Source of the DNA: Clostridiaceae bacterium
GTDB lineage: Bacteria > Bacillota > Clostridia > Lachnospirales > Lachnospiraceae
Length of the DNA stretch: 64,000 nucleotides
Reading direction: 5' to 3'
Assembly: GCA_910575585.1 (NCBI GenBank)
Contig: CAJTGF010000028.1
Span: 1 to 64,000 of the forward strand
The position numbers were made by a program, and so were the translations under genes. Position 1 is the first letter of the stretch. Every line of letters starts with the position of its first letter. This document shows positions 1 to 11,548 of this stretch, one piece after another. The notes below the pieces were generated by a model, which was not told the origin of the DNA, did no database searches, and saw only the letters and a list, made by a program, of their open reading frames with translations.

Positions 1-118
1 TATATGAAATATCAGTATATAGAACTTCTGACAGCAGACAGAATCCCCATATCATTCCAACACATAGCTAATTTATGGCAGAGTTCTTCTGAGAGACCTT
101 GCTTATCTAAATGACATT

Positions 119-272
119 GGATGAGACCAGGAAAACAGGAGGGCCTCACCCCGAGTGTTTTCCGCTTTAAGGGCTCATCGGAATGTTTGGCATATCTGAA
201 CCCGGACGGGACAGCTCTCCTCTGACTGGCCTCACGACAATCCCCGCCCATTGCTCACTCAACCATACAGCA
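119..272 (-). repeat. Truncated copy of the dispersed structured repeat
   Basis: This stretch is almost identical to 10256-10412 and, in the opposite orientation, to 9776-9930. It keeps the end with the GAGTGAGC and GGGCGGGGATTGTCG blocks and the first strand of the variable stem (207-230). It loses similarity at about 119, so the partner strand of that stem is absent. The short reading frame beginning MGGDCRE on the minus strand lies in this repeat and is not a convincing gene. Positions 1-118 hold nothing else I recognise. Confidence 0.8.
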
Positions 273-320
273 AATTCAGCTCCCCCTATAAACAATAATC
301 CCCTCCCCTCCCCTTCCAAT

Positions 321-3300
321 TCACACCAAGATCTCCTTCTGCAAAGTCAAAGAATAGATCACTCGCTCTTTCACCGGCCTTTTTACCATCTGCTCCAAAG
401 CCCGCTTATAGTAATCCAGCTGCACCCGGTACCGTTTGGCCAAAAGTTCCTCCTGCCCTTTTCCGATCCGGTCCGTTTTGTAGTCAACGAGTACAAGGCC
501 ATCCTCCTCCTCCATCCAGGCGTCGATGATTCCCTGGATTAGCACCAGCTCCCGGGAACTTCCAAGTCCCATGTCCCGGGCCGGTATTCCCATGACAAAC
601 TGCTGCTCCCGGTGAAGCCGCCCCTCCTTCTGGGCAAGCCGCATGCGCTTTCCCATGGGACTCTGAAGAAACCTCCAGATCTTTTCCCCGCTTACCATGT
701 CAGCGGCATCCTTGGCTATCCGTCCCTCCCCGCAGGCCCGACGAATCCACTGTCTGACATCCTCCTCCTTTGCCATGGAAGGAAGGTCTATAAGCTCCAA
801 GACCCGGTGGTAAGCGCTTCCTCTCACAGCTCCGCCAGGCTCCCTCTTCTCCCCCTCCTCCTTTAAAAACTCCGGAATCAAAGGCTGGAACAGACTGTTT
901 TTATCATCGGTATCCTGTCCCTGTTTCTTTAACTGGGACACAGATATCTTGGTGTGCAGGTCAATGTCCGCCTCATAAGGATACTGAAAGGAAAGCCGCT
1001 CTGTCAGAAGCCGCTCCATCCCCTCATCATAGGAAACATCCAAATCAAGGCTCTTTAGCTCATCCTCAGACACCTCCCTCTCGATCCTTCGGGCCACAGC
1101 CTGGCCCACCAGACTTTCCACCGGGATCATGTCCACAGAAAACAGAGGGCTCTTATCAGGCTGGCACATCAGTATCCAGTCCAGATAAGAAGACGCCGTG
1201 GCCAGGATGGTGTAGGGGATCTGCCTTCCGGTCCAGGTCTTCTGACGCCACCGATCCAGCTTCTTGTCCAGAAACCGGTCCGTACCTGTCATGATCAGCT
1301 TCTCCTTTGCCCTGGTCATGGCCACGTACAGCACCCGCAGCTCCTCACCCAAACCGTCCAGCTCCATCTTCCGCTTCAGAACATTTTTCTTTAAGGTACA
1401 TGCCTTCACCCTGGTGTCCACGTTTAAATGGTCCGCGCCGATCCCAAGGTCCGCATCGATCAACAGCTTTCCCCTAATATCCTGTTTGTTAAAAGTTTTC
1501 CCCATGCCGGCTAAAAACACGATGGGAAATTCCAGGCCCTTGCTCTTGTGAATGCTCATGACCCGCACCATGTCCTGGGACTTGCCTGCGGCAGTGGCCT
1601 CCCCAAAGTCGGTATCATACTTTTTCAGCCGTTCAATATATCGGATAAAATGGAACAGGCCCTTGTAGCTGGTTTTCTCATAGGCGGATGCCTTCTCAAT
1701 AAGCATGTCCAGGTTTGCCTTGCGCACCTCCCCCGCAGGCATGGCTGACACATAATCATAATACCCTGTCTGCAAATACACGCGGTGGATCAGCTCATGG
1801 ATGGGGACATAGGCTGCTTGGCTCTGAAACCCGCTTAAAAGGCGGGCAAAGGCGCGGCACTTTTTGTGTATGGATCTGGCCGTTTCCTCCGGCATTCCCA
1901 CCAGCCCCGCCAGCTCTCCCCACTCTTGTTGGGACCTCTCCCAATCAATCTGGCTGTCTTCCCACATTTCCGTTTTTTTTTCCTGAATCTTGTCATTTTT
2001 TTCCCACTTTTCTTCTCTGCTCTCCTTTTTCTCATCCCCATCTGGTTCCTGCCAGCCTTCATCCCACATATCCGCCGCCGTCTCCTGGGCTGCCTGGGCC
2101 GCTCCCTGTTCTTTCCCCAGAAGCGCAAGCCGCAGAGCCCCGTAGATCCCCCGGTCCTGGCCTTTTTCAGGGGCATGCTTCCACGCGGCCATGAGCCACG
2201 CCAGTTCCTCCTGATCCATGGCCGCCACAGGCGACTTTAAGACCGCGGCCAAAGGGATGTCCTGGATGGGGTTATCAATAACAGCCAGCATGGCCAGGAT
2301 GGTCTCCACCTCAATGGTGTTAAAGTACCCGGTTCCTGTCTCGGCAAAGGCGGGGATATCCTCCTGGGTCAGCACGTTTAAAAAAGAGTCCGTCCACCCG
2401 GTAAGGCTCCGCAGAAGGATCACCATATCCCCGTACCTGGCCAGACGGTAGCAGCCCGCTTCCTTATCCCACACCGACAGCCCCGTCTTTGGGTCCGTCA
2501 GTTCCCTGATCCTGGATGCGATCAGCCTGGCCTCGATCTCCCGGCTGGTATAGTCCTCCAGCTCCTCGTCATTTGGCCCCATGGCCTTTGTCCCTGTGTC
2601 CACCAAAAGCAGTTCTGTAGGCGTCCCGGCCTGATCCTCTGTTGGGGCAAAACTGGCCCCGGCATGAAGGGCAACGTTATCCGTGTACTGGATATTGCCC
2701 AGGTTTCTGGTCATGATCTGGAAAAATACCTGATTGATGCTGTCCAGAACAGAGGCCCGGCTGCGGAAGTTCTGACGCAGCTCGATCTTCTTTCCCCTGA
2801 CAGATTCCCCTTCGTCCTCTGCCTGGTCCTGGTTTTTGGACTGATCCTTTTCAGCCCCATACTCCTCATAGCACGCGTACTTTTTCATAAACAGCTCCGG
2901 CCTGGCCAGGCGGAATTTGTAGATGCTCTGCTTCACATCCCCCACCATAAACACATTAGGCCGCCCGAACCGCTCTGCGGACAGACTCTTTATCAGGGTC
3001 TCCTGGACATCATTGCTGTCCTGGTACTCATCCACCAAAATCTCGGCGTACCTTTTGCTCAGCTCGTCGGCCACCGGAGTGTAAGACAGTTTTTTGTCCT
3101 CCCTCTTTACCAGAACCCTCAGAGCCTCATGCTCCAGGTCATTGAAATCCACGATATTTTTGTCCCGTTTCGCCTCCTGATACCGTCTGTGAAATTCCCC
3201 GGCCAGCTCCAAAAGCTTTAAGACCACATCCCTGCTGCCAGCCAGCTCCTCCACAGCTTCCTGTGGGCTCTGCCTGCCATAGCGCTCTGCCATAGCCTTT

Positions 3301-4226
3301 ACCGCCTTTTTCACCCGGTCCCTGGCAGCGGCGGCGTACTCCTTTTTCTCCGGATCAATGGTCTTGCCCCTGGCAGCGGCCATTCTCCCGAACTCCGCGT
3401 TTTGGAGCGCGTTGTACAAAGTCCCATAATCCTGTGCTGCCCCGATGGTTTTCACCAGCTCAAGCTCCGCCTGAAGCACAGGCAGATACATATAGGGGCC
3501 GCCTTCCTGGCCGCACACCTCCATAGCCTCTGCCAGCTGCTCTGCCCATTCCCCGGATTGCCTTCTGACATCCTCCAAAAGAAACCGCATCCACGTCGTC
3601 CCGTCAAGCTCCGCCTCATTCATCTCCAGCATCTCCCGCCTGCACTGATCCAGCCACTCCTGGGGAAAGGGGTTGCTCTGGGAGAAGGTATACACCTGCA
3701 TAATATAATCCTCAATGCCGCTGTCCGATTTCCCGGCAGCGTAGTTCTCCACAAACTGGCTAAACACCGGGTCATCCTTCTCATAATACTCCTCCAGCAT
3801 TTCCTCCATCACGTCCCCCCGAAGGAGCATCAGCTCCCCCTCGTCTCCGATGCGGAAGGCCGGGTCAATATCCAAAAGATTAAAATGGTCCCGGATCAGG
3901 CTTAAGCAGAAACTGTCAATGGTGGTGATCTGCGCCCGGTGTACCAGAGCCGCCTGGACCTGGAGATGCTCCTGTGCCGGATTCTCTGCCAGCTTCTCCT
4001 CAACAGCCTTTAAGATCCGCTCCCGCATCTCCCCAGCCGCCGCGCTGGTAAACGTCATCACAAGGAGCCTGTCAATGTCAACCGGGTTCTCCTCATCGCA
4101 GATCAGATGGAGGATGCGCTCCACCAGAACGGCCGTTTTTCCGCTTCCCGCCGCTGCCGACACCAGAAGATTACATCCCCTGGCGTTTATCACTTCCTGC
4201 TGTTTTGGCGTCCATTTCATCCTCAT
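321..4226 (-). CDS. addA: AddA, helicase/nuclease subunit of AddAB
   Basis: This is the UvrD-like helicase subunit of the AddAB complex, which resects double-strand DNA ends and prepares them for RecA-dependent recombination. The 1301 residues show a Walker A motif (AGSGKT, near residue 30), the helicase motif VDEYQDSND near 395, the late helicase region RVLYVAMTRAKEKL, and a C-terminal RecB-family nuclease with the LVDYKTD motif near 1247. A lysine- and glutamate-rich insertion of about 60 residues lies near 715-775 and is unlike the conserved core. The start overlaps the end of addB by 56 bases, which implies translational coupling. The ATG at 4220 lies at a better distance from the AAGGAG site than the one at 4226 and may be the true start. 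Confidence 0.97.
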   Translation of the reverse strand: MRMKWTPKQQEVINARGCNLLVSAAAGSGKTAVLVERILHLICDEENPVDIDRLLVMTFTSAAAGEMRERILKAVEEKLAENPAQEHLQVQAALVHRAQITTIDSFCLSLIRDHFNLLDIDPAFRIGDEGELMLLRGDVMEEMLEEYYEKDDPVFSQFVENYAAGKSDSGIEDYIMQVYTFSQSNPFPQEWLDQCRREMLEMNEAELDGTTWMRFLLEDVRRQSGEWAEQLAEAMEVCGQEGGPYMYLPVLQAELELVKTIGAAQDYGTLYNALQNAEFGRMAAARGKTIDPEKKEYAAAARDRVKKAVKAMAERYGRQSPQEAVEELAGSRDVVLKLLELAGEFHRRYQEAKRDKNIVDFNDLEHEALRVLVKREDKKLSYTPVADELSKRYAEILVDEYQDSNDVQETLIKSLSAERFGRPNVFMVGDVKQSIYKFRLARPELFMKKYACYEEYGAEKDQSKNQDQAEDEGESVRGKKIELRQNFRSRASVLDSINQVFFQIMTRNLGNIQYTDNVALHAGASFAPTEDQAGTPTELLLVDTGTKAMGPNDEELEDYTSREIEARLIASRIRELTDPKTGLSVWDKEAGCYRLARYGDMVILLRSLTGWTDSFLNVLTQEDIPAFAETGTGYFNTIEVETILAMLAVIDNPIQDIPLAAVLKSPVAAMDQEELAWLMAAWKHAPEKGQDRGIYGALRLALLGKEQGAAQAAQETAADMWDEGWQEPDGDEKKESREEKWEKNDKIQEKKTEMWEDSQIDWERSQQEWGELAGLVGMPEETARSIHKKCRAFARLLSGFQSQAAYVPIHELIHRVYLQTGYYDYVSAMPAGEVRKANLDMLIEKASAYEKTSYKGLFHFIRYIERLKKYDTDFGEATAAGKSQDMVRVMSIHKSKGLEFPIVFLAGMGKTFNKQDIRGKLLIDADLGIGADHLNVDTRVKACTLKKNVLKRKMELDGLGEELRVLYVAMTRAKEKLIMTGTDRFLDKKLDRWRQKTWTGRQIPYTILATASSYLDWILMCQPDKSPLFSVDMIPVESLVGQAVARRIEREVSEDELKSLDLDVSYDEGMERLLTERLSFQYPYEADIDLHTKISVSQLKKQGQDTDDKNSLFQPLIPEFLKEEGEKREPGGAVRGSAYHRVLELIDLPSMAKEEDVRQWIRRACGEGRIAKDAADMVSGEKIWRFLQSPMGKRMRLAQKEGRLHREQQFVMGIPARDMGLGSSRELVLIQGIIDAWMEEEDGLVLVDYKTDRIGKGQEELLAKRYRVQLDYYKRALEQMVKRPVKERVIYSLTLQKEILV

Positions 4227-7200
4227 TCTCTCCTTCCAGGATCTCTTCCCATATTTCCTCCGGCTTTAAAGAGCTAAAACGCCGAAAGCGGTAGCCGGAA
4301 ACCTTTAGATCAAACCCGCAGACCCCGTGGTAAGGGCAAAAGTCGCAGGCAGTCCGGCTCCCCTGCTTGTATGGAGCCACTGGGACATTTCCATCCAGAA
4401 TCTCCCGGCCGTCCTGCCTCATCTTGCCCCGCACATACTGTTTCAAAGCCTCAAAATGCCTTCCGCTGGCAACGGATGAATACTTCTCCTGGATCATCCC
4501 GTCCTTCATGGCCACAGGAATCACGTCGGACTTGGACCGGATGTCCCTGTCCAGATGGCTGATCACCTCCAGATCGCTGTTTACCAGCCCGTTCATCCGC
4601 AGCTGCTCTAAGATCAGGGCGTCAATATCTTCCGGCACATCCACATCCTCCTTGTCCACCACAGGATCCTTGATGTTGTAGTAAAAAATCCCCGCAGGCA
4701 CCACATCCTTGGAGGGGAACCGCCGCTTTTCCAACTCCGTCACCGCGTCCATGTACACCACCAGCTGCAGCTGGAGCCCATAGTAGATGGCGGCCAGGTC
4801 AAACCGGGTGGAGCCGGATTTGTAGTCAATGATCTTCACATACACGTGGGTCTCGTCCTCGCACAGATCCAGCCGGTCAATGCGCCCCCGCAGGTGCATC
4901 TCCTCCTCTTCGGACAGCCGGATCTTCATGGCCGCCAGATTGTCGATGGCGGAAAAAGACACCTCAAACCCGGCAGGATAGAAATCTCCCTTTTTCAGCT
5001 GCTCTCCCAGAGCCCACATGGTCCGCTCCGTCATCCGCTCCATGCGTCCCGCCAGATACTGATTTCTGGCGCTGCTCTTTAAAATGGCGCTGCCGTACTC
5101 CTGGGTCACCTGGTCCACAGCCGCTTTCACCAGCTGTCCCCGCTCCTCATTACTTAGATCCCCGGCGCTTCTTCCCTGCTCTTTCAGCTGCTGAAAACAC
5201 AGATCAATAGCCCCGTGGAACAGATTGCCCATGTCCACAGCCCCCACCTGGTATTCCTGCCGCTCCATAAGCTCCATGCCATAGCTTAGGAAATGGGCGT
5301 AGGCGCAGGAGGCGTACTGTTCCAGCCTGGTAACGCTTCCCTCCAGCACCTTCCCGTACAGCGCCCTTGCCGCCGCCCGGCTGATGCCCCTCTCCTCATA
5401 GGTGTAAAATGCGGCCTGCCTTATGCGCTCTACCTGGTCTATGTGAGCCTCCTCCCTGGCAAAATGGCGGTACAGCTCCAGAAAGCTTCCGTTTCCCCGG
5501 TTCTTCTCATAATCTCGAAGCCCTTCGATCAGCCTGTCCATAGCCTCTGCCGGGGAGGCTATGGTTTTCTCCTCCAAGGCAAGGTCCTTTACCTGAAGGT
5601 CCGGGAACATCCGGCTTAATTCTCCCATAAGGGAGGAGGGCCGCTGGGCCTTGCCTGCCTGGGTAAACGCCGCGTAGGACACCACCAGGCCGCGGGAGGG
5701 CTTTGTCATCATCAGGTACAGATAAAATCTCTGGCGAAAGCTGTCCTCCCTGGAAGTAGGGGCCAGCTCTATGGACATTTCCTTTAAAAACTCCCGGTCC
5801 ATGTCTGTCAAAATGCCGCCGCTGTCTTTTCTGGAAGGCACCACCCCCTCGTTGACCCCCAGGAAAAACAGCACTTTGATCTGATCTAGGCGGGTCCTGG
5901 TAATATCGCCCACCACCACCCGGTCCACCGTGGCAGGGATCACCCCCACCGTGATCTCCCCGAATCCTGCGTCCAGGATCTGGGCGTACTCCTTCCGGCT
6001 CACCTTCTCCTCCCCCAGAAGGTGGGTCAGACGGTCAAACATGGCCATTACCAGCTCATAGACCTGCTCATACTCCTTAGCCAGGCTGTACTCCCCGATC
6101 TCCTCAAAATGTTCCCGGTAAGCTTCCAGCTGCCTTTGGACCTGGCACTGTTCCAGACAGGCCACCACAGCCGCTGTCATAGTCTTTACCGTCTTCTCCC
6201 GATCCCCCGCCGCCGCCTTCAGGGGCCCAAGCTTTAACAGGATCTCCTGCCGAAAATCGTTCAGCTCTTTTAAGTTTAGCTGTTTCCCTCCCCGGTACGT
6301 GTTCTCCCACACCTGATTCCAGCGCTTAAATCCCCGGATGCCAAGGGCTGTCACATAATTTTCCAGGCGGTGGATCTGTTCCATCTTCGGGGAGGCCAGC
6401 CCTGTCTTTAGAAACCGGAACACACTCTCATAGGAAAAATCCTTCTCCACCGCCTCCAGGGCCGCCCGGATAAATTCCACCATGACATTTTCCATGATGC
6501 TCTTTTTATTGTCCATAAAATAAGGGATATTCTCTGCCTGAAACCGGTTGGCGATCTCATACCCGTATCCGGTCAGATCACCGGTTATGACCGCGATCTC
6601 CCGGTAGCGGACTCCCTCATTCTGCACCAGCCGGTGGATATAGGACGCCGCCCCCTCGATCTCCTGGGCCGGAGTGCGGGCCTTAAAGATCTCGATCTGT
6701 CCCGGCTCCCCCTGAAACGTTTTCGGCGTATAGCGGTATAAATGTTTTTCAATAAACCCGATGGCAGGACTGTGGGCAAAACGTCCCTGCCGCCGCGCTA
6801 CGATAACTCCCGGGCCTGTACTTGTTCCTATGTTTGTACTCGTTCCCGCCCCCATATTGGTTTCTGCGTCCGCACTTGTTCTCACACCCGTATCCGCGCC
6901 ACCGCCAGAGTCCTGGTCTGCCAGGACCACATCCTTTTCTCTAACGATCTGGTTCTTTACCGCCAGCTTTGCCAGATGGCAGGTCATATCTTTGCTCATG
7001 TGGAAGAGGTTCTGAAGCTTCGCCTTCTCAAAGGGGTTTTCCCCCACGCCGATGGTGACGGTTACTGCCACCTTTCTGGAATAGAGCATCAGAAGCTCCA
7101 AAAGCCGGTACTGTACCGGCGTAAATCCGGTGTACCCGTCCAGAGTCACTACGCTGTTTTTGATGAACCGGGACTGGGGCAGCACCCGGCAAAGCACGTC

Positions 7201-7740
7201 CAGGATCTCCTCCGTGGTGATGTACCGGTTGGAGATCTCCCTTTGGAACGCCTCATAGATCACCAGCAGATCCTTTAGCTTCTCCTTAAGCAGCGGACTT
7301 TTTACCTCTACGGCGGCTGCTCGCAGGCCGTCGGGGCTGATCCCGTACTGATAAAGTTCTGACAGCATGGATTTTAGTTGATTGATAAATCCGGTCTGAT
7401 TCAGATGGCCGGAAAAGATGCCCAGATTTTTCCGCTCCCCGGAAGCCACTCTCCTTAATACCATGGATTTGCCCATATCGTCCAGGACCTCCAAGTGTTC
7501 CACCGCCAGCTCCTCAAACACCCGATACGCCAGGCGCTCAAAGCTTACAATGTCAATGTTCATGGTCCCATGGTCCGGGTGCAGCGTTACAATATCTTTC
7601 TGGGTCTGCATAGTAAACTGCTCCGGCACAATGGCCACGTACTGGATCTGGGGCTGCTCCATAGACTGACGGATCAGATCTTCATAGAGATATCTTGTCT
7701 TCCCGGAGCCGGAGGCTCCAAAGATAAATTGCAGGGACAT
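4171..7740 (-). CDS. addB: AddB, nuclease subunit of AddAB
   Basis: This is the second subunit of the AddAB helicase-nuclease and the first gene of the operon. The 1189-residue protein has an N-terminal Walker A motif (GASGSGKTRYL, residues 8-18), a C-terminal RecB-type nuclease (IIDYKSG near 972) and the cysteine pattern of the AddB iron-sulfur cluster: one Cys near 810 (ASCAYAHF) and three in CDFCPYHGVC near 1133. A low-complexity stretch rich in Gly, Thr and Ala (near residues 275-310) separates conserved blocks and is probably a flexible linker. It is preceded by a weak AGAGGT ribosome site. The pair is chromosomal housekeeping DNA. Confidence 0.97.
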   Translation of the reverse strand: MSLQFIFGASGSGKTRYLYEDLIRQSMEQPQIQYVAIVPEQFTMQTQKDIVTLHPDHGTMNIDIVSFERLAYRVFEELAVEHLEVLDDMGKSMVLRRVASGERKNLGIFSGHLNQTGFINQLKSMLSELYQYGISPDGLRAAAVEVKSPLLKEKLKDLLVIYEAFQREISNRYITTEEILDVLCRVLPQSRFIKNSVVTLDGYTGFTPVQYRLLELLMLYSRKVAVTVTIGVGENPFEKAKLQNLFHMSKDMTCHLAKLAVKNQIVREKDVVLADQDSGGGADTGVRTSADAETNMGAGTSTNIGTSTGPGVIVARRQGRFAHSPAIGFIEKHLYRYTPKTFQGEPGQIEIFKARTPAQEIEGAASYIHRLVQNEGVRYREIAVITGDLTGYGYEIANRFQAENIPYFMDNKKSIMENVMVEFIRAALEAVEKDFSYESVFRFLKTGLASPKMEQIHRLENYVTALGIRGFKRWNQVWENTYRGGKQLNLKELNDFRQEILLKLGPLKAAAGDREKTVKTMTAAVVACLEQCQVQRQLEAYREHFEEIGEYSLAKEYEQVYELVMAMFDRLTHLLGEEKVSRKEYAQILDAGFGEITVGVIPATVDRVVVGDITRTRLDQIKVLFFLGVNEGVVPSRKDSGGILTDMDREFLKEMSIELAPTSREDSFRQRFYLYLMMTKPSRGLVVSYAAFTQAGKAQRPSSLMGELSRMFPDLQVKDLALEEKTIASPAEAMDRLIEGLRDYEKNRGNGSFLELYRHFAREEAHIDQVERIRQAAFYTYEERGISRAAARALYGKVLEGSVTRLEQYASCAYAHFLSYGMELMERQEYQVGAVDMGNLFHGAIDLCFQQLKEQGRSAGDLSNEERGQLVKAAVDQVTQEYGSAILKSSARNQYLAGRMERMTERTMWALGEQLKKGDFYPAGFEVSFSAIDNLAAMKIRLSEEEEMHLRGRIDRLDLCEDETHVYVKIIDYKSGSTRFDLAAIYYGLQLQLVVYMDAVTELEKRRFPSKDVVPAGIFYYNIKDPVVDKEDVDVPEDIDALILEQLRMNGLVNSDLEVISHLDRDIRSKSDVIPVAMKDGMIQEKYSSVASGRHFEALKQYVRGKMRQDGREILDGNVPVAPYKQGSRTACDFCPYHGVCGFDLKVSGYRFRRFSSLKPEEIWEEILEGENEDEMDAKTAGSDKRQGM

Positions 7741-9711: not shown

Positions 9712-9775
9712 AAAACGGATGCTGTAGTCGCACGCCACACCACCTACAACGGTCACGATTACCGAAAATAGTATT

Positions 9776-10041
9776 GCTGTATTGTTGAGTGAGCAATGGG
9801 CGGGGATTGTCGCGGAGCCCGGGAGGGAAGGGAGGCTGTGTGCCGTTCGGATTCAGATATGCCAGACATTCCGATGAGCCCAAAGCGGAAATCAGTCGGG
9901 TATCATCCCTCCTGCTTTCCTGGTCTCATCTCCATGGCATATATTCACCCGCCCGGCACACAGCCTCCCTTCCCTCCCGGGCAAAAGCAGAATTCGCTGG
10001 CTAAGGTTTGCTCACTTAAGGTAGTTTCGATAGGGAACGCC
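9776..10041 (+). repeat. Structured dispersed repeat, left copy
   Basis: This is one of two near-complete copies lying head to head with a 110-base spacer. It folds as a rod: a perfect 29-bp variable stem (9817-9845 with 9954-9982), then conserved inner stems ATATGCCA/TGGCATAT and GATGAG/CTCATC. The 3' end carries a block (9989-10041) that pairs with the other copy. Positions 9712-9775 show nothing else. The overlapping 86-residue frame is not conserved in frame between copies, so I do not call it a gene. Confidence 0.85.
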
Positions 10042-10151
10042 GTTTCGACTCTGTAGTGAAAAGATAACTGCTTTGTCTGCAGATCCTTTCAGGTTTACAA
10101 CAATATACTTAAGGCCATAAAAAACAGCTATTTTTCGCTACAAAGTTGAAG

Positions 10152-10412
10152 CAGCGTCCCCTACCGAAACTACCTTAAGTGAGCAAACCTTAGCCAGCGA
10201 ATTCTGGTTTTGCCAGGCAGAGGAGAGATGTCCCGGCAGGGTGAATATATGCCATGGAGATGAGACCAGGAAAACAGGAGGGCCCAACCCCGAGTGTTTT
10301 CCGCTTTAAGGGCTCATCGGAATGTTTGGCATATCTGAACCCGGACGGGACATCTCTCCTCTGACTGGCCTCACGACAATCCCCGCCCATTGCTCACTCA
10401 ACAATACAGCAA
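10152..10412 (-). repeat. Structured dispersed repeat, right copy
   Basis: This is the inverted partner of the copy at 9776. The conserved parts match it closely, but its long stem (10346-10369 with 10212-10235, 23 of 24 pairs) has an unrelated sequence that is still self-complementary. The terminal blocks 10152-10204 and 9989-10041 are reverse complements with two mismatches. The spacer 10042-10151 is AT-rich and has no gene. Confidence 0.85.
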
Positions 10413-10414
10413 TT

Positions 10415-11548
10415 TTATTCTCTCACGTGACCAGGTAACCTTAACACTTCATACCCCTCCCACCCCGCCGGAATCTCCAGCTTGTCAATCATCCGCTCCA
10501 GCACCGAAACCGGAATATGGCGGCTGCGCTTCTCATTTCTCCTAAGCAGTTCCCGGTAAGGTGCTTCCAGATACACGATGCGCACCCTGGCCCCGTAAGC
10601 GGAAAACAGACCGCACAGCTTCTGCCTGGTCTCCTGGATGATATTGGTGGCGTTCCAGATAAAAGGCTCTTTTTGGCGCAGCAGCTCCCTGGCCCGTTTC
10701 GTGGCGATAGATGCCACCTTAGCGGATTTCTCCCCCGGGGCGATGTTATACTCCTCCCGGATATCATCCAGGGAGATCACCGGCTTTCCCGCCCCGTGAT
10801 CTCTGATCCAGGTGTCTTTTCCGGCCAAAGGAAGCCCGCTCATAAGCCACACATCAAACTCCGTGTCATCATACAGTGTACTGCCCTGCCACAGAGAGTC
10901 CCGGTGAAAATACTGATATCTGGTGTAGGCATTGGCAAACGGATAGGGCCCCTTAAGGACGCCCAGCTCCTTTCCATAGTCGTAAAATAATTCAATGTGT
11001 CCGCGCAGATCCTCCGGCTCCCTGGATATCCGCCCCATGGCGTCCGCCAATGACAGAAGATGCAAAAACTCCAAAGGCACGCTCTCCGCTGCCTTTAAAA
11101 GGTCAAACTCCGGACGCCTCTTTGTCCAGAACCAGACAGGAAGCCCGTGATAGCGGATCAGCCGGGCTGTCTGCTCCCGCTCCTCAAAAGTAAGGCCAAA
11201 CCGCTCCTGCCCCCGATAGGCCATGGCCCGAAATACCTTCTCTCCCACAATGGTGTGTTTCGGAGAGGTCCATTTGCCGTCCTCCAGCCTGGTGCAGGCC
11301 GGCTTTCCGATGTCATGAAACGCTCCTGCCAGAAACAAAAGCTCCTGTTCCCTTTCAGAAAGCCTCTGCCACTGCCCAAGTTTTCTCATCTCCTCACACA
11401 CCAGCCCGGTGTGGCGGTACACATCCCCCTCGGCGTGGTACTGGGGATTCTGCTTTACCCCCTTTAACAGGTTCAAATCCGGATAAGCCTCTGCAAGACC
11501 ATCCAGGGAGAAGTCCCGCTGCCGGATCTCCCGCAATATGTTTCCCAT
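10415..11548 (-). CDS. HD-Pnk type end-healing enzyme (HD phosphoesterase plus polynucleotide kinase)
   Basis: The 377-residue protein has an N-terminal HD domain (FHDIGKPAC near residue 78, with further His residues such as RYHGLPVWF) and a C-terminal P-loop kinase (GLPLAGKDTW near 239, then an aspartate in ISLDDIREEYN and the NATNI motif). This order matches the HD-Pnk family described from Runella, in which the HD domain removes 2',3' phosphates and the kinase phosphorylates 5'-OH ends. A strong AAGGAGG ribosome site precedes the ATG. It lies 121 bases downstream of an RNA ligase gene on the same strand, so the two probably heal and seal broken RNA together. The substrate is inferred. Confidence 0.85.
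   Translation of the reverse strand: MGNILREIRQRDFSLDGLAEAYPDLNLLKGVKQNPQYHAEGDVYRHTGLVCEEMRKLGQWQRLSEREQELLFLAGAFHDIGKPACTRLEDGKWTSPKHTIVGEKVFRAMAYRGQERFGLTFEEREQTARLIRYHGLPVWFWTKRRPEFDLLKAAESVPLEFLHLLSLADAMGRISREPEDLRGHIELFYDYGKELGVLKGPYPFANAYTRYQYFHRDSLWQGSTLYDDTEFDVWLMSGLPLAGKDTWIRDHGAGKPVISLDDIREEYNIAPGEKSAKVASIATKRARELLRQKEPFIWNATNIIQETRQKLCGLFSAYGARVRIVYLEAPYRELLRRNEKRSRHIPVSVLERMIDKLEIPAGWEGYEVLRLPGHVRE

Follow-up and report, generated by a model that had tools for sequence, protein, structure and literature searches.

A palindromic hairpin family with a conserved apical core and fast-changing stems, carried by non-autonomous mobile elements and possibly kept paired by DNA-level rewriting of its arms

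The window, by which we mean the whole 64,000-nucleotide stretch analysed, carries at 321-7740 two large reading frames of 1301 and 1189 aa, which we take to resemble the AddA/AddB helicase–nuclease pair, and at higher coordinates a two-armed palindromic repeat. Each half of 9776-10412 is a hairpin with the boundaries TTGAGTGAGCAA and TTGCTCACTTAA, and the two halves also pair with each other in inverted orientation: 9966-10062 with 10132-10228, 9882-9960 with 10229-10307, and 9764-9833 with 10353-10422. A sequence-only reading of this DNA had described strong hairpins at 9776-10041 and 10152-10412, with common loops on main stems that differ but are well paired, together with a truncated third piece, and all of these features are confirmed (see the table). 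The hairpin at 9776-10041 (+) lies 10.3 standard deviations below dinucleotide shuffles in stability (z -10.3) and that at 10152-10412 (-) 7.1 below (z -7.1); none of 200 shuffles was equally stable in either case. The same reading held that the short MGGDCRE frames covering the repeat are not kept, and indeed, among 47 copies, the far foot falls in frame 0 in 26, in frame 1 in 14 and in frame 2 in 6, and was not found in 1. The frames of these copies span 26 to 107 codons, one being open to the end. Because the frame varies between copies, MGGDCRE is ruled out as a protein-coding frame. A hammerhead-like motif noticed by eye was discarded because its GATGAG is one side of a helix.

Features of the repeat in the window, with strand and supporting matches
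Feature	Coordinates	Strand	Remarks
Two-armed palindromic element, window copy	9776..10412	+	outer LE/RE tips not found
Left arm hairpin, main stem of 29 bp, between the feet TTGAGTGAGCAA and TTGCTCACTTAA	9785..10019	+	
Left-arm conserved apical core	9848..9952	+	covariance model R1, 117.2 bits; core also in the model's seed alignment
Inter-arm spacer, own ends inverted	10020..10174	.	
Right arm hairpin, inverted, main stem different from left	10175..10401	-	
Right-arm conserved apical core	10237..10343	-	covariance model R1, 124.1 bits; core also in the seed alignment
Truncated right-type arm copy	119..273	-	BLAST 108-273, 95% to right arm; covariance model 99-204 (-), 84.1 bits

The two hairpins are not separate repeats, as had been supposed, but the facing arms of one element: all 18 full-length copies in the source genome (L001-L018) carry one arm of the 9776 type and one of the 10152 type. 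Since the window hairpins are two arm types of one element, the difference between their stems is not itself an independent compensatory event. The element is a single palindromic mobile unit of about 640-720 bp, present in dozens of copies in the source genome (L012, of 719 bp, is an example), where BLAST gave 109 matches in a strand-wise count that scores each palindrome on both strands. The gap from arm to arm is ~110 to 460 bases in most two-armed copies. Intact copies extend past the arms to sharp ends, TTAG-ACCCTTAAGAACGATTTCTTGCGCAAAATGGCAAAAT on the left and AAAGTTCCGGTTTATCCGGGTTAG-G on the right. TTAG begins 34 of the 42 distinct left ends, and TTAGG terminates 34 of the 36 distinct right ends, two of which belong to a larger element coding for a protein of ~500 aa. 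The tip search over the source-genome copies listed no tip for the window copy (L001).

That the repeat is a non-autonomous mobile element, one of the possibilities raised by the sequence-only reading, is supported. Empty sites, which that reading had proposed to look for, exist: locus L042 is an element nested within another hairpin, comparison with L079 gives an empty site of a single TTAG, and a genus mate of genome G156 lacks the insertion at three of three aligned loci. The search for target duplications, proposed with it, gave a divided answer. Elements of the TTAG type have no terminal inverted repeats and carry only TTAG at their two junctions; some copies in G007, G022 and G315, with TAGG..CCTA ends, are flanked by direct repeats of ~11-12 bp as read by eye.

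Several further observations concern the source-genome copies. Of the 15 copies among L002-L018 with assignable tips, 10 have the 9776-type arm next to the left tip and 5 have the other arm there; the inner two-armed part can thus lie either way round between the outer tips, as if recombination between the arms had inverted it. Loci L081 and L085 are short derivatives in which the 5' half of one arm is fused at the tip to the other arm, and L085 has left tips on both ends. Decayed pieces of an IS200-type tnpA lie between facing arms (L074, L079) or beside a single arm (L077) and have apparently been copied together with the element. At 38 loci with usable flanks, orientation to the neighbouring genes was 45 versus 31 (p = 0.14), and in view of the lack of significant bias the reading as a terminator or cis-regulator was set aside.

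The right tip provides a link to a likely mover. Its 23-mer, TTTTCCGGTTTATCCGGGTTAGG, is a very widespread element end: named genomes from several phyla contain it in at least 116 stretches (L118-L233); among the matches listed, the hosts include Lachnospiraceae, Deltaproteobacteria, Anammoxibacter and Bacteroidetes. Pieces of the gene for the ~500-aa protein are found at 20 of the 116 listed loci. In Eubacterium plexicaudatum and others the right tip ends an element of ~1.6-1.7 kb whose reading frame encodes 500 aa and whose left tip resembles that of the source genome. The tips of this partner that match the TTAG elements are CGCAAAATGGCAAAA on the left and TTCCGGTTTATCCGGGTTAG on the right, so that both tips of the TTAG elements, the tipless window copy excepted, agree with those of the element that encodes the ~500-aa protein. 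The partner's ends are present in the source genome, as four right ends at contig edges, one internal relic, and three left ends whose final 36 residues are identical and of which at least two lie at contig edges. Since most of these ends are at contig edges, the larger element is very probably present, the assembly lacking its middle part.

Against Pfam, NCBIfam, PHROGs and PDB sequences the E. plexicaudatum protein gave nothing beyond weak hits. The weak family hits are mostly to winged-helix regulators, and a weak winged-helix signal lies at the C terminus; relatives on plasmids of Paraburkholderia, Caballeronia and Rhodococcus are labelled, where annotated, as ArsR regulator or hypothetical. 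In an alignment of eight sequences the motifs HYYFY, KxYxK and LRxExTxN are invariant. Phage records hold no relative, and viral contigs one partial relative. A scan of eight relatives for the Y1 HUH transposase domain gave no PF01797 match. We infer that the protein is a transposase, which would move the source-genome tips by acting at TTAG sites. Hairpin arms of the present kind were not seen in this likely autonomous partner, and therefore its enzyme does not need them. The proposal of a structure-recognising transposase thus appears not to be supported, since the source-genome tips, and not the hairpins, match those of the probable partner.

Each arm bears a conserved apical core of ~100 nt. 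BLAST relatives of the repeat occur in 9 of 26 genomes of the same genus, and a covariance model built from 26 chosen cores (alignment A3), run on 299 genomes of the family, found the core in 12, representing 12 genera with the source genome's own included. A broader model, applied to 391 genomes of the class, found it in 3, all in the same family and one in a further genus; the family that carries the core appears to be Lachnospiraceae. Copy numbers and genome counts are lower bounds because stricter filters were used and only the best 13 candidates per genome in the family search, or the best 9 in the class search, were scored. In G003, G007, G022 and G011 the apical core is retained (shortened in G011) and the stem is different, and the core is common to elements with different ends. 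In G131 the sequence CGGAAGG just outside the 3' arm is conserved in six copies (L315, L316, L319-L322) as a subfamily-specific foot.

Permissive scans with Rfam 15 of the window stretch and 20 relative loci gave no gathering-level match at the hairpins, where the best hits below gathering were MIR2655 (40.3 of 122 bits) and MIR868 (49.1 of 200 bits). A known RNA family is ruled out on this basis for the hairpins scanned. A Clostridiales-1 RNA (Rfam RF01699) at L050:1154-1313 has a hairpin copy nearby, with the core ~170 bases away. Titles and the opening portions of abstracts gave no description of the element; the core may figure among the microbiome RNA candidates of PMC8040213.

The sequence-only reading held that the folded shape matters, and it recommended a covariance model of copies collected across the family. 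The copies so collected indeed show a core fold conserved over 12 genera with strong covariation. In 45 chosen cores (alignment A5, which omits loop-converted copies and the short-tip copies L052, L059 and L067), 94.5% of 1210 cells are paired, versus 72.3% when shuffled and 34-44% with slid partners, the slid control being partly favourable by construction because the core structure was derived from the same alignment. Double changes occur in 25 of 27 pairs and in 285 cells (87 when shuffled). None of 500 shuffles reached the observed paired percentage, numbers of double-change pairs and cells, or covariation score. The number of further pair types, 51 versus 47.8 shuffled, was reached by 64 of the 500 shuffles and does not stand out. 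Thus the conserved, covarying fold sought as a mark of structured RNA is found in these 45 chosen cores.

The manner of the changes is also informative. One-sided changes in the core are scarce, amounting to 25 cells, 15 of them in a single pair. Among the 1210 cells, 27 are G.U and 16 are A.C, or 12 and 13 when pair 19-98 is excluded. In six tRNA genes from the same loci, a small control whose finder favours standard pairs, 11 of 130 cells are G.U (8.5%) and none is A.C. In whole stems from outside the source genus, G.U and A.C cells number 79 and 67 (p = 0.36); in stems of the source genus they number 82 and 37, an excess such as RNA would give; and all stems pooled give 161 and 104 (p = 0.0006), counts that include related copies, so that cells are not independent events. 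An internal loop is strongly kept over the 12 genera: of the 45 rows, 32 have CATTCC on one side and 38 have TCCA on the other. The strand that carries the conserved core folds better than its complement.

The stems behave quite differently from the core in some genomes, where they are hypervariable and yet nearly perfect. Genome G156 has 11 copies with arms of 93-150 nt and 2-5 non-Watson-Crick positions each; summed over these copies, with L299 excluded as lying at a contig end, 1294 of 1325 aligned positions are Watson-Crick. At E 1e-3, a common patch (25-52 nt, 77-84%) is present in only 6 of the 55 arm pairs, and forced alignments give an arm identity of 0.58-0.69, compared with 0.55-0.61 for shuffled arms and a mean of 88% for the cores. 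Genome G371 is similar, with arms of 32-80 nt, a patch common to 1 of 55 pairs, and cores at 75%. Short patches are found in three arm pairs of G145 and four of G337, mostly close to the core, and the patches common to G156 or G145 arms are often near the core as well. The stems of G131 and G315 are alike between copies. Five loci stand apart in the arm set: L301 yielded no arms, L299 runs off the end of its contig, the arms obtained for L277 and L329 are only 6-7 nt, and L255 is the same place as L302.

Comparison with the genus mate G444 shows the arms of G156 to be absent at all three aligned loci, where at most some tens of unalignable bases lie between the flanks; a fourth locus compared was split over contigs. 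Arms that are inverted copies of the flank of the insertion site are ruled out, as they are missing from the G444 sites. A search with the arms of four G156 loci found no other match in G156 except one weak hit at 78%, and for the 11 G156 arms searched neither the 50,697 phage records nor the 72,556 plasmid records gave a match, so that an origin of these arms from phages or plasmids was rejected. The feet of the G156 and G371 hairpins show no direct repeats longer than 8 bases.

A further clue comes from the loop. Overlapping loci having been removed from an initial 110 contexts, 107 cores were scored, 87 from the source genome and 20 from other members of the genus. In 18 of the 87 and none of the 20, the 5' side of the loop near the tip is the exact complement of the 3' side. 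The loop is retained in 67 and 19 cores, respectively, and 2 and 1 show neither pattern. The 18 converted arms, all in one genome, may trace to one or a few events. Since at least 9 of the 18 full-length copies have converted arms, the loop seems not to be needed for mobility. Loop conversion is the mark that template switching should leave on an imperfect palindrome; in PMC8794818, template switching is described as a cause of multi-base compensatory change that creates and maintains RNA hairpins.

Our preferred explanation, in which we have about even confidence, is a palindromic family built of three parts, a conserved apical core, a stem that changes fast and a foot particular to each subfamily; it is situated inside non-autonomous mobile elements, and its stem stays perfect through rewriting of the arms at the DNA level. 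The family, its mobility and the covarying core are shown, and the rewriting is inferred. DNA synthesis would rewrite one arm from the other, either by template switching at an extruded hairpin or by fold-back synthesis primed at the core, so that no selection on stem sequence or on an RNA would be needed to keep the stem perfect. Copying alone would erase the core loops, which are strongly kept, and therefore selection must act on the core too; the core might be kept for its recognition by some factor, or as the place where synthesis turns back. Arm copying keeps the two arms alike without accounting for the differences among copies in the outer arms of G156. An unlikely extension would have the element inherit one arm only, with a single strand folding back at the core, priming the second arm and inserting as a perfect hairpin. 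If that were true, any sequence adjacent to the core would become a perfect stem, and every copy might carry its own arms.

A structured noncoding RNA, transcribed from the hairpin, with a core that binds a protein or ligand and a stem that selection on the RNA maintains by ordinary compensatory mutation, would account for the strong covariation and conserved internal loops, for the better folding of the core-bearing strand over its complement, and for the G.U excess in source-genus stems. We nevertheless consider it improbable. Core G.U pairs are nearly absent across genera, compared with 8.5% in the small control of six tRNAs; arms of 93-150 nt with little common sequence are hard to obtain by stepwise compensation while the cores remain 88% identical; orientation relative to neighbouring genes (45 versus 31, p = 0.14) is not significantly biased; and the scanned hairpins have no gathering-level Rfam match. 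The sequence-only reading had taken the wholesale change of the stem as strong evidence that the folded shape matters, as RNA or single-stranded DNA. Independent replacement of stems does occur in other genera, although the window pair is no case of it, but its use as evidence for selection on RNA shape is not supported: the core passes from Watson-Crick to Watson-Crick pairs with hardly any G.U, G.U and A.C are equally rare in stems outside the genus (79 versus 67), no significant gene-strand bias is seen, and a side of the loop has been replaced by the exact complement of the other; the excess within the genus (82 versus 37) runs the opposite way. The nearly Watson-Crick core, the largely unrelated stems and the loop conversion fit DNA-level arm copying better than compensatory mutation of an RNA, the G.U excess in the source genus notwithstanding.

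The Watson-Crick-only pairing of the core would suit a single-stranded DNA hairpin that serves as substrate for a structure-recognising transposase or relaxase, an enzyme in need of shape and not of sequence. The sharing of the core by elements with different ends, as if it were a common functional part, also points this way, as do 11 Y1-transposase loci in the source genome, with decayed tnpA between facing arms in two and beside a single arm in one. Such a substrate seems doubtful when the likely autonomous partner of the TTAG elements lacks hairpin arms and at least 9 of 18 full-length copies have loop-converted arms, and the tnpA pieces resemble a nested IS200-type insertion. Capture of DNA, with each move copying a neighbouring or foreign stretch into both arms, would produce the near-perfect, largely unrelated arms of G156 (a patch in 6 of 55 pairs) and G371 (1 of 55), and the core-proximal position of many patches common to G156 and G145 arms is in keeping with it. 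Donors are another matter: the arms of four G156 loci match only themselves in that genome, bar the one weak 78% hit, the 11 G156 arms are unmatched in the phage and plasmid records, collections outside which donors may fall, and sites that lack the insertion carry no arms. Capture is accordingly the least probable of the readings considered, and we regard it as very unlikely.

Changes on both sides of a stem commonly count as proof of functional RNA, and a large natural family such as this one bears on that practice. The near-perfect pairing, the wholesale replacement of stems and the few core G.U pairs make the choice between selection and DNA copying directly testable, with many copies per genome. 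Further openings are the occurrence of the conserved core on several backbones and a mobile-element protein of ~500 aa that is widespread and unclassified.

The family shares features with several known systems. Like MITEs and other non-autonomous elements with an autonomous partner, the present elements have many copies, no enzyme of their own, ends that match a larger coding element, and insertion-free sites in a relative; they differ in that the TTAG type has no terminal inverted repeats and that the interior hairpin, with its conserved core, is found on several backbones. Elements of the IS200/IS605 group and their PATE derivatives lack terminal inverted repeats and carry small hairpins close to the two tips and a short target motif. 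The same three traits are found here, the motif being the TTAG at the junctions, whereas a Y1 (PF01797) match is missing from the partner protein. RAYT proteins move the REP/BIME repeats, which are many-copy intergenic palindromes; the present palindromes, also in many copies, are far larger and have a conserved tip and a variable stem. In integron attC sites, as here, structure is kept while stem sequence varies, but conservation there is basal and here it is apical. The hairpins attributed to template switching in PMC8794818 share with the present family double changes of several bases, by which perfect pairing is regained in a single event; those described there lie in RNA genes and involve short helices, whereas the arms here reach 150 nt and can be replaced wholly.
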